Shown here: positions 8,351-60,015 of the stretch, piece by piece | Layout of the letters: each line of letters begins with the position of its first letter | Position numbering within the stretch: position 1 is the stretch's first letter | NCBI RefSeq assembly: GCF_013340845.1 | Contig: NZ_AP020335.1 | Coordinates: 62,001 to 126,000 of the forward strand | Reading direction: 5' to 3' | DNA length: 64,000 nt | From: Hydrogenovibrio marinus | GTDB lineage: Bacteria; Pseudomonadota; Gammaproteobacteria; Thiomicrospirales; Thiomicrospiraceae | Notes under the pieces: generated by a model | Told to the model about the DNA's origin: nothing | Seen by the model: the letters and a program-made list of their open reading frames with translations, nothing else | Databases searched by the model: none | Position numbers and translations under genes: made by a program

Positions 8351-8804
8351 ATTGGATGGGTTTGAGTGATTTGGGGGCTGCAACTTTGATTTGGTAGGCC
8401 TGATGGCAGGCAATGCAGTTCTTTTGCAGGGTCGCCAATTTATGCAGAATTTCATTTTTATCGCCTAACGTTTCGGCTTCATTGGCGATGTCTTCAAACC
8501 CTCTGTGAGTAGCAGGGCCCAGCTTCATCATACCTGGAGGCAGTTTTGCTTTGAGAGAAGCGGGTGTATTGTTAATCATTTTGATGCCGACTTCCCGGGC
8601 GGCTTTTTCTACGCGATTCATATCGTCAGCCAAACTGGCTTCAAGAATTTGTTGGCTGGCAGACATGAATTCGCGCATTTCCTGTAAGAAAGCAGATTTT
8701 TGATCGGCAGATAGCCACACAACACTTCGATTATCCGCATGGGCTGCGTGAAAAGACAGCCAACTTGCCATCGCGATAAGGATGATTAAGGGTTTTTTAA
8801 ACAT
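8349..8804 (-). CDS. Periplasmic class II cytochrome c (cytochrome c'/c-556 type)
   Basis: This 151-aa protein has a Sec signal peptide (MFKKPLIILIAMASWLSFHA, cleavage after AHA at ~23). A single C-terminal haem-binding site is at 130-134 (CIACH), followed by QAYQ. A single CxxCH near the C-terminus of a four-helix bundle is the class II cytochrome c arrangement. Such proteins act in periplasmic electron transfer or bind NO. The sixth-ligand Met cannot be fixed by eye, so c' and c-556 remain equally possible. It lies upstream of no obvious redox partner, and the neighbouring tetR on the same strand ends the transcript before it by 29 bp. Confidence 0.88.
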   Translation of the reverse strand: MFKKPLIILIAMASWLSFHAAHADNRSVVWLSADQKSAFLQEMREFMSASQQILEASLADDMNRVEKAAREVGIKMINNTPASLKAKLPPGMMKLGPATHRGFEDIANEAETLGDKNEILHKLATLQKNCIACHQAYQIKVAAPKSLKPIQ

Positions 8805-30936: not shown

Positions 30937-31836
30937 TCAATAACGGCTAGGTCGGTTCGCTATGGCTGGTAATCCCCAAGCATTGATGTTTGAGTGAGCT
31001 TCCAGCTTGTTTTCAACAGTATCGTTCAGTTTCCAGAAAAAGTCGATACCCGTTCGCTGTTCCACCTCGTCAATCGTCACCACATATTTCATCAAAGAAT
31101 CATCCGGTTTCGCAGTCTGAGGCATGATAAACGCCAAGGCGATTGGAGGATTGCCGTCTGTAGCAGGACGTACGAAAATTTTGTAGAACGCGGAGGGAAT
31201 GGCGATGTCGGTGCCTTTCAGCATTTTCGGGTTTTGGCTGAAAATAGGGCCGGTTACTACCCAAAAAGACGTGAACTGTTTGGAAAAGACATCTGCGCTG
31301 ACTTCTTCCAATCGCTGCCAGATTTTAGCGTTGAAGCTGTGCTTTTGCGGTGTGATATTGGTCATGAGAAACGTCTGTAACTGAGCTTCACGACCATAAC
31401 GGCTGCCAATAACATAGTTAGGTGCCATGTGACCTCGGTCATAACCTGTGCGGCGATAGTCGTCACTGGTGACATGGCGCAGACTGCGCCAGTCAGCATG
31501 GAACTCGCCACGTTTGCCGAGCTTTTCCTTGTTTTGCGTGACTTTGTAGGTGACCCAAAGCGGATTGCCGTACTTTTCCGAGTAACCCACCATGTAGCCA
31601 TCGTTTCTCAATGTGTGGGTGAGATTTTGCCAATCATTCTGTGTCTTCGGTACCCCCATATAGGCCATTTGGGGGCGAGCGTATTCAGTTTCATAAACAT
31701 ATTTCAAGCCACCAATCAGCAGGGCGAAGCCTAAAATCATTGGCCACCAGAAAAAACTGATCTGTAAAATTTTGGGTTGACGCTTGAGCTGTCTGAAAGC
31801 TTCTTTCAGCAATTTTCTTTGAGTAGCTTGATTCAT
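30937..31836 (-). CDS. DNA/RNA non-specific endonuclease (NucA/NucG type)
   Basis: This 299-aa protein has one N-terminal membrane span (~27-46) and a secreted beta-beta-alpha-metal nuclease domain. The catalytic motif DRGHMAPN is at 133-140, with His136 as general base and the metal-ligand Asn in FLMTNITPQKHSFN. The domain should face the periplasm, tethered to the inner membrane. It degrades DNA and RNA with Mg2+. Possible roles are nucleotide scavenging or handling of incoming DNA; the context with a transglycosylase does not decide. It overlaps cmoM by 4 bp (ATGA). Confidence 0.9.
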   Translation of the reverse strand: MNQATQRKLLKEAFRQLKRQPKILQISFFWWPMILGFALLIGGLKYVYETEYARPQMAYMGVPKTQNDWQNLTHTLRNDGYMVGYSEKYGNPLWVTYKVTQNKEKLGKRGEFHADWRSLRHVTSDDYRRTGYDRGHMAPNYVIGSRYGREAQLQTFLMTNITPQKHSFNAKIWQRLEEVSADVFSKQFTSFWVVTGPIFSQNPKMLKGTDIAIPSAFYKIFVRPATDGNPPIALAFIMPQTAKPDDSLMKYVVTIDEVEQRTGIDFFWKLNDTVENKLEAHSNINAWGLPAIANRPSRY

Positions 31837-43724: not shown

Positions 43725-44180
43725 TTAATCCAACCAATCAGGTTTAGGACTTTCACGTCCGCCGGCTTCAAAGCCTTCATCTACAAAACCATGCAACGTA
43801 AGGTCGTGGCAATGAATCAACTCAACTAATTTTGGGTCTTCCGCTGTCAGTGTCGCTTGCACGCCGTTTTCAATCGCTTCGTAATGCATGTTTATTTGGT
43901 CTTTGTATTCAAATAATGCTGCAAATAATGGATCCCAAGAGCGTATCGCTCTGCCCATGCCAAATCGCTTTCCCATGCCGATTACGTGATCTTGCAGTAC
44001 TTTTGCCAGTTCTGAGTTTTGAGAAGTGGTCGTGGCAATAATGCCATTGTCGATTTTTTGCGTGTGGCGCTCTAGTTGTTCGTGTTGTTCAAGTAGTTTT
44101 GAGAAAAGCGCTTGGTCTTGCTTATGTTGTTCGTCAGTACCATGACCATGACGATAAGGTTTGCCATGAACAGTTTTCAT
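43725..44180 (-). CDS. His-rich protein with an internal duplication, unknown function
   Basis: The ATG at 44180 follows AAGGACTTTCT and gives 151 aa. Two copies of a ~32-residue motif lie exactly 60 residues apart: RHTQKIDNGIIATTTSQNSE (from Arg38) and MHYEAIENGVQATLTAEDPK (from Met98). Both keep the pattern H-x4-[DE]-N-G-x2-A-T. Histidines at 39/65 and 99/125 have the same 26-residue spacing, which would suit a metal or haem site in a helical bundle. Between them is IRSWDPLFAALFEYKDQI. There is no signal peptide. I recognise no named family. It is next to trxC, so a redox link is possible. Confidence 0.75.
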   Translation of the reverse strand: MKTVHGKPYRHGHGTDEQHKQDQALFSKLLEQHEQLERHTQKIDNGIIATTTSQNSELAKVLQDHVIGMGKRFGMGRAIRSWDPLFAALFEYKDQINMHYEAIENGVQATLTAEDPKLVELIHCHDLTLHGFVDEGFEAGGRESPKPDWLD

Positions 44181-44518
44181 AGAAAGTCCTTGAGTAGGAT
44201 GGTGAAAGATTATTTTAGGAGATTTTTCAAAAAAAAGCGCCGAATAAATCGGCGCGATTTTCAACTGAGGAGCATATTCAAATAAGCTTAGGAGGTCTTA
44301 ATTGAATATTATTTGAGTTAATGAAATTAGGTTTCGGAGAAACCCAGTTAACGAAAATCCTTATTCGTTAACCTGAAATAAAGTTTACGCCTAAATTTAA
44401 TACAAGAGATTTGAGGGAGTGTGAAATTGTATTGAAGAAAGCTGACTGGATGCTAAAAGCCTTCGCCTAACGCTGAGTAAATCAGCGAAAAGGCGATGGA
44501 AGAGGAGGATTGTTGTTT
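44181..44518. other. 338-bp intergenic region dense in hairpins
   Basis: There is no supportable ORF. At least five inverted repeats occur in 270 bp: 44237-44255 (GCGCCGA/TCGGCGC, a terminator), 44274-44309 (12-bp stem with one mismatch, loop CTTAGGAGGT), 44330-44344 (GGTTTC-GGA-GAAACC), 44347-44372 (GTTAACGAA/TTCGTTAAC) and 44463-44496 (two-part stem). Read on the minus strand, the array ends in the terminator. It could be a structured 3' UTR of the gene at 44519, a small RNA, or a set of protein sites. Confidence 0.45.
44229..44255 (-). terminator. Rho-independent terminator, minus strand
   Basis: GCGCCGA (44237-44243) pairs with TCGGCGC (44249-44255) around ATAAA. On the minus strand the hairpin is followed by eight T (plus-strand A run 44229-44236). 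It ends transcripts coming from the small gene at 44519-44854 or from a separate RNA. Confidence 0.8.
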
Positions 44519-44854
44519 TTATTTTTTGTCAGTTGAATTCAGTACGTTGTAATTAGCTTGTGCTTGAAAATTAGCAGAATAGGTCAAACCATTGGTGGTT
44601 TCGCCTTTTTCTGTCGCTTCAGTGCTAGCGGAATCTTTTTCGTTCACTCTACGACTTTTCGCCAAATTGAGATAGTCTGATTGCAGCGATTGATTTTTAT
44701 CCGAAAGTGTTACGGTTGAATTACCCGCAGAAGAGGAAGTTGTCGTCGATTTTTCTGTGACTTTAGGTTCTTTTGCCGTCGTATCAGATAACCCATTAGA
44801 CTGCATATAAGTGGCTTGGGTTGCACTTGCTAAAACAGGATTAACATTGTTCAT
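44519..44854 (-). CDS. Small Ser/Thr-rich hypothetical protein
   Basis: The ATG at 44854 has AAGGAATGCTGTT in front and gives 111 aa. The sequence is rich in Ser, Thr, Asn and Lys (KSTTTSSSAGNSTVTLSDKN) with no signal peptide, membrane span or Cys, and is probably disordered. The N-terminus (MNNVNPVLASATQATYMQSN) could form a short helix. It is divergent from the giant adhesin gene across 234 bp, so the two might share control. I do not recognise it. Confidence 0.6.
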   Translation of the reverse strand: MNNVNPVLASATQATYMQSNGLSDTTAKEPKVTEKSTTTSSSAGNSTVTLSDKNQSLQSDYLNLAKSRRVNEKDSASTEATEKGETTNGLTYSANFQAQANYNVLNSTDKK

Positions 44855-45088
44855 AACAGCATTCCTTTTGCGTATCGGAATTGTGCGTTCCTCGCACATT
44901 TCTTTCAGTATGAAACTCAATTATAAGAAAAAAATACAAAAAGTCTAGTTTCTTCAATTAGTTAGTGATTCTTAAAAAGCAAGTGGTAGAAAAACGGGGG
45001 AATATTGTCCCTAGGTACAATAGATTTTGGTTGACCAAGGTTCTATAGTGCTTTTACTGAGTAAAAAAGCATGAGCTGGAGAAGTCTA

Positions 45089-48000
45089 ATGGCTGCAAGT
45101 AATTCTGTTGTAATCGGTCGAGTTGGAGAAATTACCGGGGTAGTTTACATCAAACTTCCTTCTGGAGAGTTGGTACAACTTAAGGAAGGTATGGTTGTCC
45201 ATGCTAACGATGTTATCGTGACGGCTGATGGAGGATCCATTCTAGTTTACTTGGCAGATGGCTCAGTCTTCACTTTGGGACAAAATTCAGTTGCTCGTTT
45301 GGATGACGATATTATGCCAAGAGCAGCTGCTGAAGATTTGCAGGCAAAGAACCAGGATGACGTTAAAGATTTGGCTCAGAAGGTTCTTTCTGGCCATGCC
45401 GGTGACTTGGATGCTACTGCAGCAGGGGAAACCGGGCAGCCATTATCTTCTTCTTCTCAGTCACCGGATGCTATTCAAGCTGATAGATCACAAGGTAATG
45501 TTACCAGTGGATTTGATACTGGAAATTCAGATGGTCAGGGTACTGGACAGCCTGATAATCAAACAGGTAATGGTGACAGCCAGAACAGCTTTTTTGCAAC
45601 TCAGCAAGCAGTTTTCTCAGTTTCCCTTGATATTGACAGAATCACTTCAGATAGCTTGGTTAATGCGCAAGAAGCCAACGGTACGATTAATGTGACCGGT
45701 ACGGTTACTGGGCTGAATTTAGACCACGGTACAGTCACGCTAACAGTTAACGGAAAAGATTATTCAGGAACTTACGGTTCGGACGGGAAATATTCTATTG
45801 CGGTTCCTGGAACCGATTTTGTTAATGATTCTGACCAAATCATCCAAGCAACCACTACGGGCTATAACCAGCAAGGAGATCAAGCTACCAGTTCTTCTAC
45901 TGAGTTTTACTTGATTGATACAAGTGCCGGTCGTGTGTATGTTGATCCAATTACGGGTGACAACCTTGTTGCGGGTAATGAAGATCAAAACGTCACAATC
46001 AGCGGTAAAACCACTTCAATTGCAGCAGGTCAAACGGTTACGGTTGACGTTCTTGATGAGGCTGGAGCTACAAAATACACTGGCTCTGCAACTGTAGGTG
46101 TTGACGGAAAATGGTCAATTTCAGGCGTTGATATGAGTGGTTGGCCTGATGAAGCAAATTACCATGTGGTTGCTAATGCGGTAGATTCCTCTGGTAACCC
46201 TGCAATCAAAGGTGAGCAGGACTTTTCAACGCGTGTTACTCAAAGCGATTCTTTAACCATTCAAGAAAATACGATTGGTACGGGGAATGTTTTGTCCAAC
46301 GACAGCAATCCAAATCATACTTTACAAGTAACCAACTTCACTATTGCCGGTGACACACAAACTTATTCTGCTGGACAGACAGCAACCATCTCTGGAATAG
46401 GTCAGATTGTTGTACAGGCGGATGGTAGTTACCAATTTACGCCTGAGCATAACTGGGATGGTACTGTTCCAAAGCTTACCTATAACACGAATATCAATGA
46501 GCATGATACCTTGGATATTTCCGTTGAACCTGTTGGAAGTAACCACACCGGCACGGTGACGATTGACCCTGTGACGGCTGATAACGTAATTAATGCAACT
46601 GAAAGTGGTAGCACAGTAGCCGTAACCGGTACTGCTGCTGGTGGAGACATTAAAGCGGGCGATACTGTTACGTTGGTTATTAATGGAACACAGTACACCA
46701 CAACCGTGGGTTCAGATGGGAAATGGAGTGCAAATGTTGCCGGCTCTGATTTGGCGGTTGACTCGGATAAAACATTTACAGCCGTTGTGTCCTCTAAGGA
46801 CAGCTCTGGCGGAACGGTTATTAGTAATGCGGATCACACTTACAGTGTCGATACCACAGCGGACAAAGGAACGGTCACGATCAATGACGTGACTTCAGAC
46901 AACGTGATCAATGCCGCGGAGAGTGGACAAACCATCGCAGTGACAGGAACCGCGACCGGTGGCGACATCAGCAGCGGAGATACGCTAACGATGACCATCA
47001 ACGGCAAAGACTACAGCACCACCGTCAACAGTGACGGCAGCTGGAGCGTCGATGTAGCCGGCTCCGACCTGGCCGCGGATGCCGACAAAGGCTTCACAGC
47101 GAGTGTTGCGTCAAGCGATGCCGCGGGCAACACAGTGACCACCACAGCGGATCACACTTACAGTGTCGATACCACAGCGGACAAAGGAACGGTCACGATC
47201 AATGACGTGACTTCAGACAACGTGATCAATGCCGCGGAGAGTGGACAAACCATCGCAGTGACAGGAACCGCGACCGGTGGCGACATCAGCAGCGGAGATA
47301 CGCTAACGATGACCATCAACGGCAAAGACTACAGCACCACCGTCAACAGTGACGGCAGCTGGAGCGTCGATGTAGCCGGCTCCGACCTGGCCGCGGATGC
47401 CGACAAAGGCTTCACAGCGAGTGTTGCGTCAAGCGATGCCGCGGGCAACACAGTGACCACCACAGCGGATCACACTTACAGTGTCGATACCACAGCGGAC
47501 AAAGGAACGGTCACGATCAATGACGTGACTTCAGACAACGTGATCAATGCCGCGGAGAGTGGACAAACCATCGCAGTGACAGGAACCGCGACCGGTGGCG
47601 ACATCAGCAGCGGAGATACGCTAACGATGACCATCAACGGCAAAGACTACAGCACCACCGTCAACAGTGACGGCAGCTGGAGCGTCGATGTAGCCGGCTC
47701 CGACCTGGCCGCGGATGCCGACAAAGGCTTCACAGCGAGTGTTGCGTCAAGCGATGCCGCGGGCAACACAGTGACCACCACAGCGGATCACACTTACAGT
47801 GTCGATACCACAGCGGACAAAGGAACGGTCACGATCAATGACGTGACTTCAGACAACGTGATCAATGCCGCGGAGAGTGGACAAACCATCGCAGTGACAG
47901 GAACCGCGACCGGTGGCGACATCAGCAGCGGAGATACGCTAACGATGACCATCAACGGCAAAGACTACAGCACCACCGTCAACAGTGACGGCAGCTGGAG

Positions 48001-51000
48001 CGTCGATGTAGCCGGCTCCGACCTGGCCGCGGATGCCGACAAAGGCTTCACAGCGAGTGTTGCGTCAAGCGATGCCGCGGGCAACACAGTGACCACCACA
48101 GCGGATCACACTTACAGTGTCGATACCACAGCGGACAAAGGAACGGTCACGATCAATGACGTGACTTCAGACAACGTGATCAATGCCGCGGAGAGTGGAC
48201 AAACCATCGCAGTGACAGGAACCGCGACCGGTGGCGACATCAGCAGCGGAGATACGCTAACGATGACCATCAACGGCAAAGACTACAGCACCACCGTCAA
48301 CAGTGACGGCAGCTGGAGCGTCGATGTAGCCGGCTCCGACCTGGCCGCGGATGCCGACAAAGGCTTCACAGCGAGTGTTGCGTCAAGCGATGCCGCGGGC
48401 AACACAGTGACCACCACAGCGGATCACACTTACAGTGTCGATACCACAGCGGACAAAGGAACGGTCACGATCAATGACGTGACTTCAGACAACGTGATCA
48501 ATGCCGCGGAGAGTGGACAAACCATCGCAGTGACAGGAACCGCGACCGGTGGCGACATCAGCAGCGGAGATACGCTAACGATGACCATCAACGGCAAAGA
48601 CTACAGCACCACCGTCAACAGTGACGGCAGCTGGAGCGTCGATGTAGCCGGCTCCGACCTGGCCGCGGATGCCGACAAAGGCTTCACAGCGAGTGTTGCG
48701 TCAAGCGATGCCGCGGGCAACACAGTGACCACCACAGCGGATCACACTTACAGTGTCGATACCACAGCGGACAAAGGAACGGTCACGATCAATGACGTGA
48801 CTTCAGACAACGTGATCAATGCCGCGGAGAGTGGACAAACCATCGCAGTGACAGGAACCGCGACCGGTGGCGACATCAGCAGCGGAGATACGCTAACGAT
48901 GACCATCAACGGCAAAGACTACAGCACCACCGTCAACAGTGACGGCAGCTGGAGCGTCGATGTAGCCGGCTCCGACCTGGCCGCGGATGCCGACAAAGGC
49001 TTCACAGCGAGTGTTGCGTCAAGCGATGCCGCGGGCAACACAGTGACCACCACAGCGGATCACACTTACAGTGTCGATACCACAGCGGACAAAGGAACGG
49101 TCACGATCAATGACGTGACTTCAGACAACGTGATCAATGCCGCGGAGAGTGGACAAACCATCGCAGTGACAGGAACCGCGACCGGTGGCGACATCAGCAG
49201 CGGAGATACGCTAACGATGACCATCAACGGCAAAGACTACAGCACCACCGTCAACAGTGACGGCAGCTGGAGCGTCGATGTAGCCGGCTCCGACCTGGCC
49301 GCGGATGCCGACAAAGGCTTCACAGCGAGTGTTGCGTCAAGCGATGCCGCGGGCAACACAGTGACCACCACAGCGGATCACACTTACAGTGTCGATACCA
49401 CAGCGGACAAAGGAACGGTCACGATCAATGACGTGACTTCAGACAACGTGATCAATGCCGCGGAGAGTGGACAAACCATCGCAGTGACAGGAACCGCGAC
49501 CGGTGGCGACATCAGCAGCGGAGATACGCTAACGATGACCATCAACGGCAAAGACTACAGCACCACCGTCAACAGTGACGGCAGCTGGAGCGTCGATGTA
49601 GCCGGCTCCGACCTGGCCGCGGATGCCGACAAAGGCTTCACAGCGAGTGTTGCGTCAAGCGATGCCGCGGGCAACACAGTGACCACCACAGCGGATCACA
49701 CTTACAGTGTCGATACCACAGCGGACAAAGGAACGGTCACGATCAATGACGTGACTTCAGACAACGTGATCAATGCCGCGGAGAGTGGACAAACCATCGC
49801 AGTGACAGGAACCGCGACCGGTGGCGACATCAGCAGCGGAGATACGCTAACGATGACCATCAACGGCAAAGACTACAGCACCACCGTCAACAGTGACGGC
49901 AGCTGGAGCGTCGATGTAGCCGGCTCCGACCTGGCCGCGGATGCCGACAAAGGCTTCACAGCGAGTGTTGCGTCAAGCGATGCCGCGGGCAACACAGTGA
50001 CCACCACAGCGGATCACACTTACAGTGTCGATACCACAGCGGACAAAGGAACGGTCACGATCAATGACGTGACTTCAGACAACGTGATCAATGCCGCGGA
50101 GAGTGGACAAACCATCGCAGTGACAGGAACCGCGACCGGTGGCGACATCAGCAGCGGAGATACGCTAACGATGACCATCAACGGCAAAGACTACAGCACC
50201 ACCGTCAACAGTGACGGCAGCTGGAGCGTCGATGTAGCCGGCTCCGACCTGGCCGCGGATGCCGACAAAGGCTTCACAGCGAGTGTTGCGTCAAGCGATG
50301 CCGCGGGCAACACAGTGACCACCACAGCGGATCACACTTACAGTGTCGATACCACAGCGGACAAAGGAACGGTCACGATCAATGACGTGACTTCAGACAA
50401 CGTGATCAATGCCGCGGAGAGTGGACAAACCATCGCAGTGACAGGAACCGCGACCGGTGGCGACATCAGCAGCGGAGATACGCTAACGATGACCATCAAC
50501 GGCAAAGACTACAGCACCACCGTCAACAGTGACGGCAGCTGGAGCGTCGATGTAGCCGGCTCCGACCTGGCCGCGGATGCCGACAAAGGCTTCACAGCGA
50601 GTGTTGCGTCAAGCGATGCCGCGGGCAACACAGTGACCACCACAGCGGATCACACTTACAGTGTCGATACCACAGCGGACAAAGGAACGGTCACGATCAA
50701 TGACGTGACTTCAGACAACGTGATCAATGCCGCGGAGAGTGGACAAACCATCGCAGTGACAGGAACCGCGACCGGTGGCGACATCAGCAGCGGAGATACG
50801 CTAACGATGACCATCAACGGCAAAGACTACAGCACCACCGTCAACAGTGACGGCAGCTGGAGCGTCGATGTAGCCGGCTCCGACCTGGCCGCGGATGCCG
50901 ACAAAGGCTTCACAGCGAGTGTTGCGTCAAGCGATGCCGCGGGCAACACAGTGACCACCACAGCGGATCACACTTACAGTGTCGATACCACAGCGGACAA

Positions 51001-54000
51001 AGGAACGGTCACGATCAATGACGTGACTTCAGACAACGTGATCAATGCCGCGGAGAGTGGACAAACCATCGCAGTGACAGGAACCGCGACCGGTGGCGAC
51101 ATCAGCAGCGGAGATACGCTAACGATGACCATCAACGGCAAAGACTACAGCACCACCGTCAACAGTGACGGCAGCTGGAGCGTCGATGTAGCCGGCTCCG
51201 ACCTGGCCGCGGATGCCGACAAAGGCTTCACAGCGAGTGTTGCGTCAAGCGATGCCGCGGGCAACACAGTGACCACCACAGCGGATCACACTTACAGTGT
51301 CGATACCACAGCGGACAAAGGAACGGTCACGATCAATGACGTGACTTCAGACAACGTGATCAATGCCGCGGAGAGTGGACAAACCATCGCAGTGACAGGA
51401 ACCGCGACCGGTGGCGACATCAGCAGCGGAGATACGCTAACGATGACCATCAACGGCAAAGACTACAGCACCACCGTCAACAGTGACGGCAGCTGGAGCG
51501 TCGATGTAGCCGGCTCCGACCTGGCCGCGGATGCCGACAAAGGCTTCACAGCGAGTGTTGCGTCAAGCGATGCCGCGGGCAACACAGTGACCACCACAGC
51601 GGATCACACTTACAGTGTCGATACCACAGCGGACAAAGGAACGGTCACGATCAATGACGTGACTTCAGACAACGTGATCAATGCCGCGGAGAGTGGACAA
51701 ACCATCGCAGTGACAGGAACCGCGACCGGTGGCGACATCAGCAGCGGAGATACGCTAACGATGACCATCAACGGCAAAGACTACAGCACCACCGTCAACA
51801 GTGACGGCAGCTGGAGCGTCGATGTAGCCGGCTCCGACCTGGCCGCGGATGCCGACAAAGGCTTCACAGCGAGTGTTGCGTCAAGCGATGCCGCGGGCAA
51901 CACAGTGACCACCACAGCGGATCACACTTACAGTGTCGATACCACAGCGGACAAAGGAACGGTCACGATCAATGACGTGACTTCAGACAACGTGATCAAT
52001 GCCGCGGAGAGTGGACAAACCATCGCAGTGACAGGAACCGCGACCGGTGGCGACATCAGCAGCGGAGATACGCTAACGATGACCATCAACGGCAAAGACT
52101 ACAGCACCACCGTCAACAGTGACGGCAGCTGGAGCGTCGATGTAGCCGGCTCCGACCTGGCCGCGGATGCCGACAAAGGCTTCACAGCGAGTGTTGCGTC
52201 AAGCGATGCCGCGGGCAACACAGTGACCACCACAGCGGATCACACTTATGCCGTAGACACTCAGGCACCAGACAAGCCAGTGATAACAAATATCACTGAC
52301 ACCAATGGTGATTATTCAAATGTGATATTGCATGGTACAGGTGAGCCTGGCGCAACCGTTACGCTGCTCAGCCGTGAAGGTAGTACCACTGGTGGAAATG
52401 ACACTGGTTCTTGGACCTATACTGCTGTTGAAACAAGTACGCCAATTGTTGTCGATGCAAATGGGAATTGGACGGTTGATATTTCAAACCTTCCAAATAC
52501 ACCTATTGATGACAATGAGTTCTTTAAAGCAACTCAAATAGATGCGTCGGGCAATGTCAGTGCAGATTCTGATTCTGTTCACTACTGGCATGGTGATTGG
52601 TCTTCTGTTGCAACGGAAGCTAATGATGACTATGTCATGATGGGTTCAGGCAAAGACCAAATCATCATAAGCAGTAATGATACAAATGATCATTTCGTTG
52701 TAGATGGTGGTGATAACATCGATACGGCTGTATTCAGTGGCAAATTCTCTGATTATGCATTATCAACTAGCTCAACGGGTAGCTTGATAGTTACAGAGGG
52801 CGTTAGCACGGATTCCAATGGTAATGGTGTTGGCGATGTTGATGAACTGAGAAATATTGAGAAAGTTAAATTTACTGATGGTACATACGATGTCCCAACA
52901 GGTGTATTCAAATTAAATGGTATTAGCGTAGACATTGAGCATGATACGGGTACAAGTTCCACCGATAGAATCACAAATGACAGCACTTTGAAAGTGACAG
53001 GTTTGGTGTCTGGAGCAACTATTGAGTACAGTTCTGATGGTGGACAAACTTGGACGACTCAATATAACCCTCAAGAAGGGGTTAACAACATTTCCGTTCG
53101 TCAAGTGGATGCAGAAGGCCATACTTCTGACAGTTCGAATGTTAGCTTCACTCTTGATACCCAAGCGGGTGCTAACATTGATGTTGATATTCTTACAGGC
53201 GATGGATACCTGACTGCTGCAGAAGCTTTTCCAGGGGTTAAAGTGCCTGTTACAGGTTATGTTCAAGGCGATGCGCAACCTGGTGATACGATTTCCATTA
53301 TCTTGGATGGCAACGTAATTGGAACAGGAACGGTTTCTTCGGATGTTAACTCAAGCGGTGCATACACATTTAGTGTCGACGTTCTTGGTAGTGATTTAGC
53401 TGATGGTTCAGGAATGATTCCTGAATTAAAAGCAACTGTTACCGGTTCAGATGTAGCAGGCAATACCTTTAGTGCAGAGAGCACTGAAGTCTATATGAAA
53501 GACTTTATCGCAACGGTATCGATTAATGTTACAGATGGAAACACCTCTGATAGTGACAATGTAATCTCTGCATCAGAAGCAAGTTCAACTGTTGTTTCTG
53601 GGAATGTTGAAGTTGGCGGTCAGGTAAGTTCAATAACCATTTCTGATGGGACCAATACTCTAACGATCCCTGCAAACCAAATTACGGTTTACTCAAATGG
53701 TTATTACACGGTTAATACTGATGTTTCATCTTTGAATGACGGTGTTCTGACTGTAAGCGTTGAAGCCAGTGATAAATTGGGTAATGTTGGGACCAATAGC
53801 ACGACTATTGAGAAAGACACTCAAGCTCAGGCAGGAACCGTCACTGTTGATAGTATTACGGATGACAATATTGTTAACACAATGGAGAGTGGACAAACCA
53901 TCGCAGTGACAGGAACCGCGACCGGTGGCGACATCAGCAGCGGAGATACGCTAACGATGACCATCAACGGCAAAGACTACAGCACCACCGTCAACAGTGA

Positions 54001-56269
54001 CGGCAACTGGAGCGTCGATGTAGCCGGCTCCGACCTGGCCGCGGATGCCGACAAAGGCTTCACAGCGAGTGTTGCGTCAAGCGATGCCGCGGGCAACACA
54101 GTTACCAGTTCTGCTGCACATTCTTATACAGTTGATTCACAGCCAGAAGGACATGATGAGACTCAGACTATGGATTTCGAATCTGCAACTGTTTCTCAGA
54201 AAACCACAAATGTTGTAATTACGTTAGATATTTCTGGTTCTATGGACAGTGACAGTCGTTTGGCTCTTGCTAAGTCTGCACTCGAAAAAATGATTAATGC
54301 CTACGATAATCAAGGCAATGTTAACGTTAAATTAGTCGCTTTCAACGGCGGTGCCACATTGGAACAGCATGATGGCAGCGTTTGGTTAAAAGCAGATGAA
54401 GCCATAAGCATTATTAAAGATCTTCAGGCTGGTGGAAGCACTAATTATGAAGATGCTGTTCTTAAAACTTATAGTAATTACTCTGAACCTACAGCAGATA
54501 AGACGGTTGCTTATTTTATTTCTGATGGTGAGCCAACTACAGAAAATTATGGTGGTAATGGCAGTGGAACCGCAGGGGGCTTCTTAGACAATGACTATGA
54601 GCATGGTTGGGATAACTTTGTTAGTCAATATGTAGATGATTTGCATGTGGTTGCTTTAGGTGATGATGCACTGAACTCTAAATACTTAGATGTGTTAGCC
54701 TCAGCCGGAAACAATGTCTCGACGGTTACGGAAGTATCAGATGCTTCGCAATTAAGCGATGCAATTGTCCCTACTAATACTGAACTTTCCGTAACTGGTA
54801 CGGTCTCTGATAATGTAACAGGTGGTGACGGAGCGATTACGATTCAAAGTATCACTGTTGATGGTACAGCCTACACTTCTAGTACTTTCCCGAGTGAAGG
54901 CGTCGCGATTAATGGTAAAGGGACTCTGGCATTTGATTTCTCAACGGGTAACTACACCTATTCTGCGGGATCAAATGAATTTACCAAAGATGTGACTCAA
55001 ATGTTTACCGTAACCGCTGCTGATGCCGATGGTGATACGGCTGATGTAAAAGTTAGTATTAATGTTAATGTTGATGACACAGCGTCTAATGCGACATTAA
55101 GTATGTCGATTGGTGATGCTGAGGTGACTACTACACATAATTACACTTATGACTCAGACGATGCGCGTAACGCTAACCATGATAACTATCATAGCCTTCA
55201 CGATGCTCTGGAAGGTCAGAATGGCTGTAATCATTCTAATGGTACATTAGTCTACAAAAATGTTAATGAAACCAGTTGGAATCTTAGTGACTCTTCTGAC
55301 AAGTTGTTTGCCATTACAGGAAACTCTCATAATGCAAACATTAATTTAAGCGGTGGAAATAACACGCTTATTTTTGAAAAAGATCCAGGCAGCAATATTG
55401 CGGTTAACTTTGGTTCGGGTAAAGATGTACTTATACTTCCTGGAAGCGAGTCCGATTATAATTTGAGTGCCTTCCACAACAATGGAGGCGTCTTAAGTGG
55501 TCAAATTACAGGTCATGACAACATGAACTTGACGGTGAATAACCTTGACTGCTTGGTGTTTAGTGATCAGGTTATGGGCGACTCATCTCTTTACAAAGGG
55601 GAGACATCAAATCATTACACTTATGATCTAAGTGCTTCTGCTAGCCTGACAGATACAGATGGATCAGAATCTTTGTCAGACATTACAATTTCTGGATTGC
55701 CTGATGATGGTTCAGTCACGGTCACAGGTACAGATGTTTCCAAAAACGATGATGGCACATACAATGTTAAGTTGCAGGATGATGGAAAAATTGCAGATGA
55801 TGTGAAGATTTCTTCTTCAAAAGAGCTGACTTCCAGCGAATTGAATGATGTCCATGCATCAGTAACTTCTACCGAAAGTAACGGTAATGAGACAGCGACA
55901 ACGGAAGTCAATGAGAGTGGTGATAACTTCCTGTACGCTGATACCGGAGATGATTTGTTTGTGGGAACAAATCAGTCTGATACCATCAAAGTTGATGGCG
56001 ATGGTTCAACCACCGTTCAAAACTTTGACGTGCAGAACGATGTTCTTGACTTGAGTGATGTCATTGCAGATGATCAAGTTGTGACTCAAGATACCTTGTC
56101 GCAGTATTTGACGGTTACGCAAACAGATAAAGGTACAGAAGTGACAGTTGATTCGAACGGAAAAGATGTTGCCGGCGGAGAAGTTGCCAACATCATGCTT
56201 GAAGGTTTGAACGATTCAAATAATCTTCAAATTCAGATTGATGATAATAAGGTAGACTACCACGACTAA
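45089..56269 (+). CDS. Giant LapA-type repeat adhesin, type I secreted
   Basis: The ATG at 45089 follows GGAGAAGTCTA and is preferred to 45071; it gives 3726 aa. Residues 1-105 are a LapA/BapA-type retention module (VVIGRVGEITGVVYIKLPSG). TAAG at 110-113 is the di-alanine LapG cleavage site, close to A108-A109 of Pseudomonas LapA. A Ser/Gly/Asn linker and Ig- and cadherin-like domains follow. Residues ~586-2386 are 17 identical 106-aa Ig-like repeats. Further Ig-like domains, a partial repeat copy, a VWA domain (~3035-3225, MIDAS DISGS in VVITLDISGSMDSDSRLAL) and another cadherin-like unit come next. The C-terminus (TGDDLFVGTNQSDTIKV, then DVLDLSDVI) is a T1SS target region with only one RTX-like turn. 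It should be held in the outer membrane and released when c-di-GMP falls. The exporter and LapD/LapG are not in the window. Confidence 0.92.
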   Translation: MAASNSVVIGRVGEITGVVYIKLPSGELVQLKEGMVVHANDVIVTADGGSILVYLADGSVFTLGQNSVARLDDDIMPRAAAEDLQAKNQDDVKDLAQKVLSGHAGDLDATAAGETGQPLSSSSQSPDAIQADRSQGNVTSGFDTGNSDGQGTGQPDNQTGNGDSQNSFFATQQAVFSVSLDIDRITSDSLVNAQEANGTINVTGTVTGLNLDHGTVTLTVNGKDYSGTYGSDGKYSIAVPGTDFVNDSDQIIQATTTGYNQQGDQATSSSTEFYLIDTSAGRVYVDPITGDNLVAGNEDQNVTISGKTTSIAAGQTVTVDVLDEAGATKYTGSATVGVDGKWSISGVDMSGWPDEANYHVVANAVDSSGNPAIKGEQDFSTRVTQSDSLTIQENTIGTGNVLSNDSNPNHTLQVTNFTIAGDTQTYSAGQTATISGIGQIVVQADGSYQFTPEHNWDGTVPKLTYNTNINEHDTLDISVEPVGSNHTGTVTIDPVTADNVINATESGSTVAVTGTAAGGDIKAGDTVTLVINGTQYTTTVGSDGKWSANVAGSDLAVDSDKTFTAVVSSKDSSGGTVISNADHTYSVDTTADKGTVTINDVTSDNVINAAESGQTIAVTGTATGGDISSGDTLTMTINGKDYSTTVNSDGSWSVDVAGSDLAADADKGFTASVASSDAAGNTVTTTADHTYSVDTTADKGTVTINDVTSDNVINAAESGQTIAVTGTATGGDISSGDTLTMTINGKDYSTTVNSDGSWSVDVAGSDLAADADKGFTASVASSDAAGNTVTTTADHTYSVDTTADKGTVTINDVTSDNVINAAESGQTIAVTGTATGGDISSGDTLTMTINGKDYSTTVNSDGSWSVDVAGSDLAADADKGFTASVASSDAAGNTVTTTADHTYSVDTTADKGTVTINDVTSDNVINAAESGQTIAVTGTATGGDISSGDTLTMTINGKDYSTTVNSDGSWSVDVAGSDLAADADKGFTASVASSDAAGNTVTTTADHTYSVDTTADKGTVTINDVTSDNVINAAESGQTIAVTGTATGGDISSGDTLTMTINGKDYSTTVNSDGSWSVDVAGSDLAADADKGFTASVASSDAAGNTVTTTADHTYSVDTTADKGTVTINDVTSDNVINAAESGQTIAVTGTATGGDISSGDTLTMTINGKDYSTTVNSDGSWSVDVAGSDLAADADKGFTASVASSDAAGNTVTTTADHTYSVDTTADKGTVTINDVTSDNVINAAESGQTIAVTGTATGGDISSGDTLTMTINGKDYSTTVNSDGSWSVDVAGSDLAADADKGFTASVASSDAAGNTVTTTADHTYSVDTTADKGTVTINDVTSDNVINAAESGQTIAVTGTATGGDISSGDTLTMTINGKDYSTTVNSDGSWSVDVAGSDLAADADKGFTASVASSDAAGNTVTTTADHTYSVDTTADKGTVTINDVTSDNVINAAESGQTIAVTGTATGGDISSGDTLTMTINGKDYSTTVNSDGSWSVDVAGSDLAADADKGFTASVASSDAAGNTVTTTADHTYSVDTTADKGTVTINDVTSDNVINAAESGQTIAVTGTATGGDISSGDTLTMTINGKDYSTTVNSDGSWSVDVAGSDLAADADKGFTASVASSDAAGNTVTTTADHTYSVDTTADKGTVTINDVTSDNVINAAESGQTIAVTGTATGGDISSGDTLTMTINGKDYSTTVNSDGSWSVDVAGSDLAADADKGFTASVASSDAAGNTVTTTADHTYSVDTTADKGTVTINDVTSDNVINAAESGQTIAVTGTATGGDISSGDTLTMTINGKDYSTTVNSDGSWSVDVAGSDLAADADKGFTASVASSDAAGNTVTTTADHTYSVDTTADKGTVTINDVTSDNVINAAESGQTIAVTGTATGGDISSGDTLTMTINGKDYSTTVNSDGSWSVDVAGSDLAADADKGFTASVASSDAAGNTVTTTADHTYSVDTTADKGTVTINDVTSDNVINAAESGQTIAVTGTATGGDISSGDTLTMTINGKDYSTTVNSDGSWSVDVAGSDLAADADKGFTASVASSDAAGNTVTTTADHTYSVDTTADKGTVTINDVTSDNVINAAESGQTIAVTGTATGGDISSGDTLTMTINGKDYSTTVNSDGSWSVDVAGSDLAADADKGFTASVASSDAAGNTVTTTADHTYSVDTTADKGTVTINDVTSDNVINAAESGQTIAVTGTATGGDISSGDTLTMTINGKDYSTTVNSDGSWSVDVAGSDLAADADKGFTASVASSDAAGNTVTTTADHTYSVDTTADKGTVTINDVTSDNVINAAESGQTIAVTGTATGGDISSGDTLTMTINGKDYSTTVNSDGSWSVDVAGSDLAADADKGFTASVASSDAAGNTVTTTADHTYAVDTQAPDKPVITNITDTNGDYSNVILHGTGEPGATVTLLSREGSTTGGNDTGSWTYTAVETSTPIVVDANGNWTVDISNLPNTPIDDNEFFKATQIDASGNVSADSDSVHYWHGDWSSVATEANDDYVMMGSGKDQIIISSNDTNDHFVVDGGDNIDTAVFSGKFSDYALSTSSTGSLIVTEGVSTDSNGNGVGDVDELRNIEKVKFTDGTYDVPTGVFKLNGISVDIEHDTGTSSTDRITNDSTLKVTGLVSGATIEYSSDGGQTWTTQYNPQEGVNNISVRQVDAEGHTSDSSNVSFTLDTQAGANIDVDILTGDGYLTAAEAFPGVKVPVTGYVQGDAQPGDTISIILDGNVIGTGTVSSDVNSSGAYTFSVDVLGSDLADGSGMIPELKATVTGSDVAGNTFSAESTEVYMKDFIATVSINVTDGNTSDSDNVISASEASSTVVSGNVEVGGQVSSITISDGTNTLTIPANQITVYSNGYYTVNTDVSSLNDGVLTVSVEASDKLGNVGTNSTTIEKDTQAQAGTVTVDSITDDNIVNTMESGQTIAVTGTATGGDISSGDTLTMTINGKDYSTTVNSDGNWSVDVAGSDLAADADKGFTASVASSDAAGNTVTSSAAHSYTVDSQPEGHDETQTMDFESATVSQKTTNVVITLDISGSMDSDSRLALAKSALEKMINAYDNQGNVNVKLVAFNGGATLEQHDGSVWLKADEAISIIKDLQAGGSTNYEDAVLKTYSNYSEPTADKTVAYFISDGEPTTENYGGNGSGTAGGFLDNDYEHGWDNFVSQYVDDLHVVALGDDALNSKYLDVLASAGNNVSTVTEVSDASQLSDAIVPTNTELSVTGTVSDNVTGGDGAITIQSITVDGTAYTSSTFPSEGVAINGKGTLAFDFSTGNYTYSAGSNEFTKDVTQMFTVTAADADGDTADVKVSINVNVDDTASNATLSMSIGDAEVTTTHNYTYDSDDARNANHDNYHSLHDALEGQNGCNHSNGTLVYKNVNETSWNLSDSSDKLFAITGNSHNANINLSGGNNTLIFEKDPGSNIAVNFGSGKDVLILPGSESDYNLSAFHNNGGVLSGQITGHDNMNLTVNNLDCLVFSDQVMGDSSLYKGETSNHYTYDLSASASLTDTDGSESLSDITISGLPDDGSVTVTGTDVSKNDDGTYNVKLQDDGKIADDVKISSSKELTSSELNDVHASVTSTESNGNETATTEVNESGDNFLYADTGDDLFVGTNQSDTIKVDGDGSTTVQNFDVQNDVLDLSDVIADDQVVTQDTLSQYLTVTQTDKGTEVTVDSNGKDVAGGEVANIMLEGLNDSNNLQIQIDDNKVDYHD
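46843..52248 (+). repeat. 17 tandem copies of a 318-bp in-frame repeat
   Basis: The junction CACACTTA recurs every 318 bp from 46842 to 52248, giving 17 full units of 106 aa. I saw no base differences between units by eye. The unit is GC-richer, with more GCC/ACC/GAC codons, than the surrounding parts of the gene. A diverged unit (46549-46842) precedes the array and an isolated partial copy lies at 53884. Copy number could be affected by assembly collapse or by recombination in culture. Confidence 0.95.
53884..54102 (+). repeat. Displaced partial copy of the adhesin repeat
   Basis: 219 bp match the 318-bp unit with a single difference (AGC to AAC at 54006, Ser to Asn). Flanking sequence on both sides is unrelated in codon use, although it encodes a homologous Ig-like domain. 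This points to a recent patch of gene conversion. Confidence 0.88.
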
Positions 56270-56325
56270 GTCTCTGTTCGTACTTCCTATGGATGGAGTA
56301 ATGATTGACGCTTAAAAGGCATGAA

Positions 56326-57675
56326 ATGTCCAGTAATCCATTTGAAAACCAAGTAGATATTACAAAATCCAAGCTATTACAAAACGATAGCTTGGTTTCA
56401 TCCTATAAGGTTAAGCAAGTGATTGAAGATGACAGTGTGTCTCGATGGGTTCGAGTTCTGCATGACATCAGCAATCATTATGCAATTAAGCGAGAAAAAG
56501 ACCTGCTGATTTATTTGAATCAGTTCAAAGATGACTTTGTTCGCTTTGACGAAATTCGTAAGGTTCAATTCAATTATCTGCAATTTTTCGATTTTGTAGG
56601 TAAGCGGACGCTGCAGGAGAAAGTTAAAAAAACAGGGCCTCTATCGGAAAAGCAAGCTCGTCACCTTCTTGAAAATGTCCTATCCGGGTTAGAAAAACTA
56701 CATGGTGTCGGCTTTGTTCATAACAATATTCGCCCAGAGTCTATCCTAGTCGGGAAAGATCATTATTACCTTTTTTCGATGGATCATGCGATTCCAATGC
56801 TGACCAGCTATGAATCTGAGTTGCTGGTGGGCGATCAACGCTATACGGCGCCGGAGCGTATGAATGGCCAAGCTTCAGAAGCTAGTGATGTCTATGCACT
56901 GGGCTGCATGCTGTATTACGCATTGTCAGGAAAGCATATTTATCGCTTAAAGCCGAATCAAGATCGCTATCAACAGCTTTATGCTCATGCATTTCATTCC
57001 ATGTCCAAAGAAAACAGCTTGCCTTATTTTTGGCGACAACTGGTTATTTGGATGACGCAGAAACAGCCGGAAAAGAGACCCAACCTGGCAGATTTAAAGC
57101 AATGGCTGGTAGATCAAGTTGTACCTAAGTTTATTCGTGATGAAGTCATCGGGCATAATCGAAAATCATCTGAAACGCCTTTAGAAGACTTAGCCAATCA
57201 GCATTGTTTGTTTGCACAATTTAAAAAGGCGAATGAATATGAAGCAGAAGGCAACCTTGATTCTGCATTTAACCTTTATGAAAATGGTGCATTCAGAGAA
57301 TATTCTCGTGCAGAGAACAATTTAGGTCTTATGTACGAAAAAGGCGCGCCTATTAAGCAGGACTACTTTAAAGCCATGAATTACTATCATATGGCTTATC
57401 AAAAAGGAAATCCCTATGCGGCTTATAACTTAGGACGTATGTTTGAAAAAGGTCTGGGAACCAGTGTTGATTTGAAGAAAGCGTTTAAACTCTTCCAGTT
57501 TTCAGCATTAAGAGGGCATCGTCCTGCACAACATAAGATAGGTTCTTTTTATGCGGAAGGGCAAGGTATTCCAAAGAATTTAATTCAAGCGCGTTTTTGG
57601 TTCGGGCTAGCGGCCAGATATGGTTGCCTAGAGTCAGAAAACAGTATCAAGAAGCTATTAACGGCTAGCCTTTGA
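56326..57675 (+). CDS. Pseudokinase domain plus Sel1 repeats
   Basis: The ATG at 56326 (AAGG before it) gives 449 aa; a TTG at 56305 behind GGATGGAG is an alternative. Residues ~25-265 are a Ser/Thr-kinase-like fold. Lys55 of the ATP pocket (YAIKRE) and the later YTAPERMNG and SDVYALGCMLYYALSGK blocks are kept. The catalytic HRDxKxxN is HNNIRPES (132-139), so Asp is Asn, and DFG is SMD (151-153). It is therefore predicted to be a pseudokinase. Three Sel1 repeats follow (~330-440: AENNLGLMYEKGAPIKQDYF, AAYNLGRMFEKGLGTSVDLK). There is no signal or membrane span. It starts 56 bp after the adhesin and is probably co-transcribed, so a scaffold for adhesin control or export is plausible. A copy of the dispersed motif is inside at 57078. 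Confidence 0.85.
   Translation: MSSNPFENQVDITKSKLLQNDSLVSSYKVKQVIEDDSVSRWVRVLHDISNHYAIKREKDLLIYLNQFKDDFVRFDEIRKVQFNYLQFFDFVGKRTLQEKVKKTGPLSEKQARHLLENVLSGLEKLHGVGFVHNNIRPESILVGKDHYYLFSMDHAIPMLTSYESELLVGDQRYTAPERMNGQASEASDVYALGCMLYYALSGKHIYRLKPNQDRYQQLYAHAFHSMSKENSLPYFWRQLVIWMTQKQPEKRPNLADLKQWLVDQVVPKFIRDEVIGHNRKSSETPLEDLANQHCLFAQFKKANEYEAEGNLDSAFNLYENGAFREYSRAENNLGLMYEKGAPIKQDYFKAMNYYHMAYQKGNPYAAYNLGRMFEKGLGTSVDLKKAFKLFQFSALRGHRPAQHKIGSFYAEGQGIPKNLIQARFWFGLAARYGCLESENSIKKLLTASL
57078..57095 (+). repeat. Dispersed ~20-bp motif, copy 9 (exact core)
   Basis: ACCCAACCTGGCAGATTT, inside the pseudokinase gene, read as PNLADL (compare PNLADF in prlC). Confidence 0.8.
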
Positions 57676-58110
57676 CATGCCAACTTTAAAAGACTTTTCT
57701 CTGTTTTGTTGTAAAAGCAGTTCTGAAAAGTCTCCCAACCACTTCGATAACACATGCATTTCTTTGGCCTGAGTGAACTCCATGAGTTCTTTTAAAGTCG
57801 CCTGCTTGATTGGGTAGTTGATGCTACTGCATGCGGCTTTGATCAGATAAAAAATCTCATCCTGAGAAAATTTTGGATTTGGCAGGAAATAGGTACTTTT
57901 GGCTAAGATAGCAGCATTGATTAGCGCTAGCCAATAGCGGTCTGAAACATGTTTGGTTGCCAGTAATTCCTTATCAGGCTCAGTCTTTTCTCTAAGTGCA
58001 AGGATTTGACCTAAAGAATAAGTCGACAGCAGTTCCAAAGCCAAATCTCGGGCATTAGGCGGTAACTCCTGTAGCAATGACTGTTCATAATCGTTTTCCA
58101 ACAATTCCAT
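57658..58110 (-). CDS. Hypothetical soluble protein (150 aa)
   Basis: The start is the ATG at 58110; a TTG at 58116 is possible. The protein is helical and Leu-rich, with ELPPNARDLALELLSTYSLG and LALINAAILAKSTYFLPNPK, ending in a basic tail. No signal, span or known motif is seen. Its 3' end overlaps the convergent pseudokinase gene by 18 bp, and it diverges from apt across ~145 bp. I do not recognise the family. The ribosome site is weak. Confidence 0.65.
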   Translation of the reverse strand: MELLENDYEQSLLQELPPNARDLALELLSTYSLGQILALREKTEPDKELLATKHVSDRYWLALINAAILAKSTYFLPNPKFSQDEIFYLIKAACSSINYPIKQATLKELMEFTQAKEMHVLSKWLGDFSELLLQQNREKSFKVGMSKASR

Positions 58111-58254
58111 AACCAAACGCCGTGTTGATGTAGTTCAAAATAAGTTTTACTGAACTGTAAATAAAAGTTTCTGTTTACGAAACCAGAGTTTATTTCAGAA
58201 TTATTTTATAGAATATATTTATCTATATTTTATCCCATAAAGAGGTTTGAAACC

Positions 58255-58417
58255 ATGTCCAACCATTATCTTGCAAAGTATTTAGACGGTGTCCCAGATT
58301 TTCCTAAGCCAGGAATCCTGTTTCAAGATATTTCACCTTTATTGAAGTCGCATTTCAGTGAGACGATTGATGCGATTTCTGCATTATTCTCTCATGATGA
58401 ATGGGAAGAAATTGTAC
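58255..58417 (+). pseudogene. apt: Adenine phosphoribosyltransferase, 5' fragment
   Basis: The reading MSNHYLAKYLDGVPDFPKPG, then ILFQDISPLL, is the N-terminus of Apt, which makes AMP from adenine and PRPP. GAGG precedes the ATG. The frame is cut at 58417 by an IS3-family element and runs into a stop within it at 58467. Removing the IS and one 4-bp flank rejoins the frame as EEIVQIDCLVGIE, so the gene was intact until the insertion. The 54-residue fragment lacks the PRPP-binding site and must be inactive. Confidence 0.9.
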
Positions 58418-58420
58418 TGG

Positions 58421-59272
58421 TCAAGCAATTTCGGACACATCACGTTTATAATTTTCATATTCAATAGGACTCATGTCACCATTGCTTGTATGAAGCCTTT
58501 CTAAGTTGTAATAACGCATATACGCTTTCACATCGTCAATCATATGCTCATGGTTAGGTTGATGTACTTTGAGCAGCCAGTCATGCTTTAAACTGCCAAA
58601 GAACCTTTCAACCACGGCATTATCCCAACACGCGCCAACATCGCCCATTGAGGCTCGGATTTTGAATTGTTTCAGCTGCGCTCTAAATGCGTCACTGGTG
58701 TATTGTGATCCACGATCACTATGGAAGATCACCCCTTTGGGCGGCTTTCTAAGCCAGTAGGCTTGCTTGAGCGACTCAAGCACGAGTTCGGTGGTCATGC
58801 GCGGGCTGATTGACCAACCGATAATCCGGCGTGAGTACAAGTCCATCACCACGCTCAGGTATAGCCAACCCTGTGCGGTTTTTAAATAGGTGATATCACC
58901 GGCCCACACTTGATTCATGCCTGTGGGGTTAAAGTCCATGTTCACAAGGTTATCTGCCACAGCGTGGCTTGGGTCCCGTTTTGTGGTGACTTTGAATGCA
59001 ACACGCTGTTCAACCTTTAGGTTTAAGATTTCCATTAACTTGATGACTTTGTGGCGCCCAACCTTAAAGCCTTCTTTACGTAATCGCTTCATCAGTTCTC
59101 GTGAACCGAGACTGTTTCGACTGGCTATAAAAAGGGCTTTAGCTCGCCGATACAGTCGCAGTTGTTCTTCGGTAATAATAGCCTTGGGACGCTTGATCCA
59201 ATCGTAATAGCCGGAGCGGCTAAAACTCATCACCTTACAGCTTAATTTAACCGAGTAGCCTTCTTGCGCCAA
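58421..59272 (-). CDS. IS3-family transposase OrfB (DDE integrase domain)
   Basis: 283 aa from a TTG at 59272. An HTH_21-type N-terminus (MSFSRSGYYDWIKRP) is followed by a retroviral-type integrase core: VWAGDITYLKTAQGWLYLSV (first Asp), VIFHSDRGSQYTSDAF (second Asp) and SMGDVGACWDNAVVERFFGS (Glu), so the DDE triad is complete. The open frame extends upstream through LGFEFIHTLAQEG to the slippery site AAAAAAG (59332-59326 on the minus strand). The active enzyme is therefore most likely an OrfAB fusion made by -1 frameshifting. The stop codon lies just inside the left inverted repeat. Confidence 0.93.
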   Translation of the reverse strand: MAQEGYSVKLSCKVMSFSRSGYYDWIKRPKAIITEEQLRLYRRAKALFIASRNSLGSRELMKRLRKEGFKVGRHKVIKLMEILNLKVEQRVAFKVTTKRDPSHAVADNLVNMDFNPTGMNQVWAGDITYLKTAQGWLYLSVVMDLYSRRIIGWSISPRMTTELVLESLKQAYWLRKPPKGVIFHSDRGSQYTSDAFRAQLKQFKIRASMGDVGACWDNAVVERFFGSLKHDWLLKVHQPNHEHMIDDVKAYMRYYNLERLHTSNGDMSPIEYENYKRDVSEIA

Positions 59273-59292
59273 CGTATGGATAAACTCAAATC

Positions 59293-59607
59293 CTAGTGCA
59301 TTTCTCGGGCGAAGAAGGCTGAGGCCTTTTTTAAAATGTCTTTTTCCATTCGAAGCCGCTTGTTTTCAGCTCGCAGCTTTTTGAGTTCTTCACGCTCATT
59401 ATCGCTTAAGGCCGCACCATTGGTTTGCGCTTCAAGCTTGTCTTTCCACTTGTAAAGCAAGTTTGGATTAACGCCTAGCGCTTGCGCCGCTTCAGCAACG
59501 CTATAACCTTGTTCAGTGACAAGCGCGACCGCTTCTTGTTTAAATTCTTTGGTGTAAGTTTTATAAACTCGCTTCTGATTCATAACCACTCCTAGATTCG
59601 ACAACAT
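59293..59607 (-). CDS. IS3-family OrfA (helix-turn-helix protein)
   Basis: 104 aa (from ATG at 59583 if shorter: MNQKRVYKTYTKEFKQEAVA). It is an HTH_Tnp_1 protein with VAEAAQALGVNPNLLYKWKD and a C-terminal leucine-zipper-like helix (ELKKLRAENKRLRMEKDILK) that mediates multimerisation. The IS3 slippery heptamer A-AAA-AAG sits in its last 40 bases, encoding KK before ASAFF. OrfA alone usually represses or modulates transposition. Confidence 0.92.
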   Translation of the reverse strand: MLSNLGVVMNQKRVYKTYTKEFKQEAVALVTEQGYSVAEAAQALGVNPNLLYKWKDKLEAQTNGAALSDNEREELKKLRAENKRLRMEKDILKKASAFFAREMH

Positions 59608-59646
59608 CTATTGTCTCTCATTGAAGTGTCCGTTTCCATTAGACCA

Positions 59647-60015
59647 GTTCAAATCGATTGTTTGGTTGGTATTGAGTCCCGGGGCTTTATCTTTGCCTCT
59701 GCATTGGCCTACAAGCACAATAAGGGATTCATTAAGGTCAGAAAGCCAGGAAAACTGCCAAATGTAAAGGCTAAAAAATCATACGGTTTGGAGTATGGAA
59801 CTGACAGCTTGGAGATGCAGGCGGGTCAGGGGCAAAAAGTGGTTATTCTTGATGACTTGATTGCGACAGGTGGGTCAATGGAAGCTGCGGCGCACTTATG
59901 TGAAGAAGTCGGTTATGACGTTGTTGGTTTGGCTTGTCTGATTGACTTAACTTCTCTAAATAACTTCAATTTCAAAGGAATGGGTGTCCGTTCCGTGATT
60001 CAATTCGACGACTAG
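59647..60015 (+). pseudogene. apt: Adenine phosphoribosyltransferase, 3' fragment
   Basis: This fragment carries the rest of Apt: DCLVGIESRGFIFASALAYK, PGKLPNVKAKKSYGLEYGTD and the PRPP-binding loop VVILDDLIATGGSMEAAAH, ending VRSVIQFDD. An open frame begins inside the IS at a TTG (59611), so a fusion peptide might be made at a low level. It would lack the N-terminal hood needed for adenine binding. The sequence shows no other damage, so the disruption is recent. Confidence 0.88.

Follow-up and report, generated by a model that had tools for sequence, protein, structure and literature searches.

To our knowledge, the requirements described for type I secretion of giant adhesins are limited to three transporter components and the LapD/LapG switch under c-di-GMP control, and we know of LapA systems elsewhere that function without a pseudokinase of the kind reported here. 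In Pseudomonas, recognition of the C-terminal signal on LapA is expected to fall to LapB (PMC9180339), and SecB provides an example of a cytosolic helper needed for the type I export of another protein, HasA (PMC8277102). EssB/YukC is a pseudokinase acting in the type VII secretion machine, and in two other pseudokinase families, ActPs2 and DYD, the beta-3 Lys has given way to a conserved Arg (PMC12599244). The open-licence literature yielded no paper in which a type I adhesin is connected with a pseudokinase or a Sel1 protein. Analysis of a 64,000-nt window of Hydrogenovibrio marinus (bases 62001-126000 of the complete 2.49-Mb genome) revealed a pseudokinase-Sel1 gene directly behind a LapA-type adhesin gene. 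In related genomes the two genes share the same fate, being retained or lost as a pair, and the dead kinase therefore probably helps to handle or export the adhesin.

The gene (56326-57675, + strand) encodes 449 aa and starts 56 nt past the adhesin stop, exactly as reported in the initial annotation of this DNA; its product is 98% identical to that of the closest named relative, Hydrogenovibrio sp. JE_KL2. The kinase-fold domain (approximately residues 13-264; 56362-57117, +) matched Pfam Pkinase (PF00069) with an E-value of 1e-23 and 84.5 bits against a cut-off of 31.7. It is joined to a Sel1-repeat region (residues 291-448; 57196-57669, +), in which three stretches matched Sel1 (PF08238, 78.5 bits) and form helix pairs in the AlphaFold2 model, so that Pfam and the model agree with the domain arrangement proposed earlier; the model shows one more helix pair, the fourth, which is degenerate, together with a capping helix. 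AlphaFold2 with 12 sequences gave a poor N-lobe, and the model based on 34 homologs (pLDDT 94.1, pTM 0.91) was used, in which residues 6-264 adopt a two-lobed fold matching solved kinases with a Z of about 25 and 2.5 Å over 251 residues. In a profile comparison, the nearest solved chains included those of PknB/StkP type and TTK; PknB/StkP-type Ser/Thr kinases share this fold but retain the Lys/Asp/Asp triad. EssB/YukC and the published pseudokinase families did not appear in the fold-search listings, an absence that carries no weight. An NCBIfam match to the MAD6 antiphage kinase (75 bits against a cut-off of 460) was set aside as generic kinase similarity. No transmembrane segment or signal peptide was apparent (hydropathy maximum of 0.71 over 19 residues), and the protein is therefore predicted to be cytosolic.

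Intact kinases of the same genus, which carry VxLK, HQD and DFG, served as the reference for motif alignment. Against these sequences, HRD is replaced by HNN (residues 132-134; 56719-56727, +) and DFG by SMD (residues 151-153; 56776-56784, +), the latter without a gap, and the APE block is kept (residues 175-177; 56848-56856, +); the HNN, SMD and APE motifs had been recognized previously. The claim that the ATP-site Lys is kept was rejected on the basis of the model and the alignment: the residue concerned, Lys55 of 'YAIK' (56488-56490, +), lies inside helix alpha-C (residues 51-64), two residues before Glu57, which occupies the alpha-C Glu position, and is Gln in several relatives. The beta-3 position is held by Arg43 (56452-56454, +), located within strand 36-45 of the model and aligned with the Lys of VxLK. 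Thus, none of the three residues that define an active Hanks-type Ser/Thr kinase (beta-3 Lys, HRD-Asp and DFG-Asp) was found, and the lineage of the window protein also lacks the Gly loop and the catalytic-loop Asn. Because the beta-3 residue is Arg43 and Lys55 had been misassigned, the active site is more degenerate than previously held, and the alignments support the assignment of this protein as a pseudokinase even more strongly than had been claimed.

Several features distinguish this protein from the described families. It resembles EssB/YukC in its kinase fold, its degraded catalytic motifs and, if the role proposed below is correct, a non-catalytic scaffold function in protein export; however, EssB is a transmembrane component of the T7SS in Firmicutes, whereas the window protein is soluble, has no hydrophobic segment, carries Sel1 repeats and is associated with a type I secreted adhesin. 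The Arg at beta-3 is shared with both ActPs2 and DYD, and the combination of Arg43 and HNN reproduces that of ActPs2, which has Asn for the HRD-Asp. On the other hand, ActPs2 is actinobacterial and its DFG is deleted, not substituted as here, DYD proteins sit in the membrane and are without the alpha-C Glu that the window protein keeps as Glu57, and the partner domain here is Sel1 (both families being compared by their published descriptions). ActPs2 and DYD are set apart by taxonomy, DFG and domain make-up as described. The present proteins were provisionally classed as a pseudokinase family of their own, whose genetic partner is likewise new.

That partner is a LapA-type adhesin of 3732 aa (45071-56269, +), which matched retention_LapA (NF033682) with 57.0 bits against a cut-off of 50. 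Its retention module (45116-45463, +) contains a TAAG dialanine motif. The same genome encodes LapG and an LssB/LapB-type exporter at a distance of 180-190 kb. In these respects the locus resembles the Pseudomonas LapA/LapD/LapG system, but the Lap systems described in the literature searched have no pseudokinase. Relatives of the adhesin C-terminal region (55787-56266, +) comprise about 160 residues with a (D/N)DxNxD(Y/F)-like tail, although the adhesins that bear them vary widely in length and repeats. Inside the adhesin gene, a 318-bp unit is present in seventeen tandem copies of 100% identity (46829-52248), pointing to either expansion or gene conversion in the very recent past. The 56-nt gap between the adhesin and the pseudokinase (56270-56325, +) contains an AAAAGG ribosome-binding-like site and no terminator-like site, and the two genes are probably carried on one transcript.

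Relatives of the pseudokinase were identified in 33 of 63 genomes of the sulphur-oxidising Hydrogenovibrio/Thiomicrorhabdus family, including 10 of 12 Hydrogenovibrio genomes, approximately 20 in the genus holding Thiomicrorhabdus MAGs and one each in two other genera; one genome has two kinases in tandem (G022). A class-wide sample of 369 genomes gave only two matches at E <= 1e-45, the window's genome and one other from the same family, and none came from the 365 genomes sampled outside the family, although the threshold is strict and distant relatives could escape it. A search for the same gene pair, as the initial annotation had suggested, found it conserved throughout the 33 genomes with few exceptions: in nearly all loci having enough sequence, the kinase is preceded by a giant adhesin gene with the same type of C-terminal region, and the distance from the adhesin stop to the kinase is mostly about 10-230 nt. 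In one genome (G027), which has the most diverged kinase, the adhesin is absent at the locus, and in three Thiomicrorhabdus genomes (loci L026, L027 and L085) an endonuclease gene lies between the pair. The intervening gene encodes a DNA/RNA non-specific endonuclease related to that at 30940-31836 in the window. A second pair occurs at a separate locus in G042 (an assembly with 8% contamination), where an adhesin-like ORF overlaps the kinase by 1 nt. Downstream conservation was also observed, extending over a convergent 152-aa gene (57658-58116, - strand), which overlaps the pseudokinase by 18 nt, apt, a GGDEF gene and argH; the conserved 140-150-aa product of the first of these had no Pfam or NCBIfam match.

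The closest association of the kinase is with one type of adhesin C-terminus. A profile of this region, built from kinase-adjacent adhesins and applied at E <= 1e-16, matched 29 genomes, all of them kinase-positive (29 of 32 kinase-positive versus 0 of 30 kinase-negative genomes; Fisher p of 1e-14, computed without correction for descent). Two of the three kinase-positive genomes without a match are explained by contig ends, and the third is G027. The retention module, considered as an alternative kinase-linked feature, tracked the kinase much less well, being present in 12 kinase-negative genomes. In several kinase-negative genomes, the same locus holds a different retention-module adhesin with another C-terminus. 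Shorter adhesins with a GGLLSLNLL-type C-terminus, some of them in tandem, were seen in three kinase-negative Thiomicrorhabdus relatives (L129, L131 and L126 in G052, G031 and G051, respectively). In G002, a Hydrogenovibrio genome and sister of the kinase-positive G004, adhesin and kinase were lost in one piece, leaving a scar of the last ~28 kinase codons before apt (L127, ~8358-8444, reverse strand). An ArgH tree placed only 2-3 independent changes, in none of which the kinase went the other way, and co-occurrence corrected for descent on this tree was not significant with 2-3 independent pairs. Because so few independent losses are available, the link between the adhesin and the pseudokinase should be regarded as strong but circumstantial on these comparisons. 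The tie to the adhesin postulated in the initial annotation thus gained from the conserved neighbourhood, the second copy in G042, the joint deletion in a sister genome and the C-terminal co-occurrence, while the role in export or control that was attached to it found no sequence evidence.

For a cytosolic protein tied to one adhesin C-terminal type, an adaptor of the export step is the simplest role. Most likely, the pseudokinase would bind either the C-terminal region through which the adhesin is exported or the type I transporter recognizing that region, and would assist or gate adhesin export; it would work by its fold, perhaps through a nucleotide-sensing pocket, rather than by phosphotransfer. 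Such a role would resemble that of SecB in being a cytosolic helper for a type I substrate, although SecB is a general chaperone of unrelated fold. We place the probability of a cytosolic pseudokinase adaptor dedicated to the LapA-type adhesin, acting without phosphotransfer, at roughly 0.45. Points against this adaptor role are that single deletions remove adjacent genes together, that an endonuclease gene separates the pair in three genomes, that G027 has a kinase but no adhesin at the locus, and that LapA systems elsewhere do without such a protein. It is conceivable, albeit unlikely, that the protein is a scaffold of another pathway (e.g., one involving the diguanylate cyclase encoded nearby or the convergent 152-aa gene) which has been co-inherited with the adhesin through adjacency, as might be expected from the conservation of the downstream block, the 2-3 independent losses and the endonuclease gene intervening in three genomes. 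However, such passive inheritance does not readily account for the one-to-one match between the kinase and the adhesin C-terminal type, for the kinase-negative genomes that retain much of the downstream block yet carry a different adhesin, or for the second copy behind an adhesin-like tail in G042.

Two other explanations concern the active site itself. Paired relatives with intact HRD/DFG, which the initial annotation had named as evidence against its reading, do exist in part: the HRD-Asp is retained in 12 of 34 aligned homologs and the DFG-Asp also in 11 of these 12, paired loci among them. All 11 carry Arg at beta-3 (Arg in 29 homologs, Gln in four and Lys only in the diverged G027 protein), and the full Lys/Asp/Asp triad is found in none of the 34. 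These 11 members, together with the Gly loop kept in several and the prediction that beta-3 Arg pseudokinases bind ATP (PMC12599244), would suit a family retaining some ATP-dependent activity through the beta-3 Arg, a possibility also raised for ActPs2 or DYD, at least in its HGD/DW members, with the window protein representing a decayed branch or an atypical enzyme. Against this, parsimony on the tree requires at least five changes at the HRD-Asp and at least seven at the DFG-Asp while the gene was not lost, and in the window's lineage the absence of both Asps, the Gly loop and the catalytic-loop Asn is itself a state under strong purifying selection. We consider residual activity somewhat less probable still than passive inheritance. 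The repeated loss of catalytic residues could also be expected of a decaying remnant of an active kinase, but this explanation is refuted, to near certainty, by the substitution pattern: dN/dS is 0.02-0.09 over whole genes in close pairs, the frame is open in all but fragmentary cases, the gene is conserved across several genera, and the degenerate catalytic stretch has zero amino-acid changes between G000 and G009 at a dS of 0.7. Purifying selection on the pseudokinase gene is thus strong as judged from these estimates. The H of HRD, the catalytic-loop Pro, the PE of APE, the alpha-F Gly and a C-lobe Arg are invariant in the homologs, a pattern indicating that the family conserves the fold and not catalysis. 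The simplest reading of these data is that the beta-3 change is the oldest and that the Asps were lost later, several times.

Taken further, the export-adaptor reading would make the dedicated cytosolic pseudokinase an undescribed, substrate-specific part of LapA-type type I secretion, which reads the C-terminal export region of the adhesin and whose active site was dismantled stepwise, starting with the beta-3 Lys and continuing with repeated losses of the two Asps, in an unbroken partnership with the adhesin. This fuller proposal is more tentative than the adaptor role as such, and we consider it possible though somewhat improbable. That a conserved pseudokinase accompanies a single type of adhesin C-terminus suggests that secretion includes an additional step specific to the substrate. 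The family also presents kinase active sites at successive stages of loss next to a genetic partner that stays the same; this natural series should be useful because, as far as we know, most bacterial pseudokinases still lack an assigned function.

Additional observations were made at both ends of the locus. Most relatives share, at this locus, two small genes that lie upstream of the adhesin (43728-44264, -, and 44522-44920, -) and had no family matches. Downstream, the adenine phosphoribosyltransferase gene apt (58255-60012) is split in the window by an IS3-type element (58421-59607), with codons 1-53 before the element and the rest after it, and is intact in relatives.
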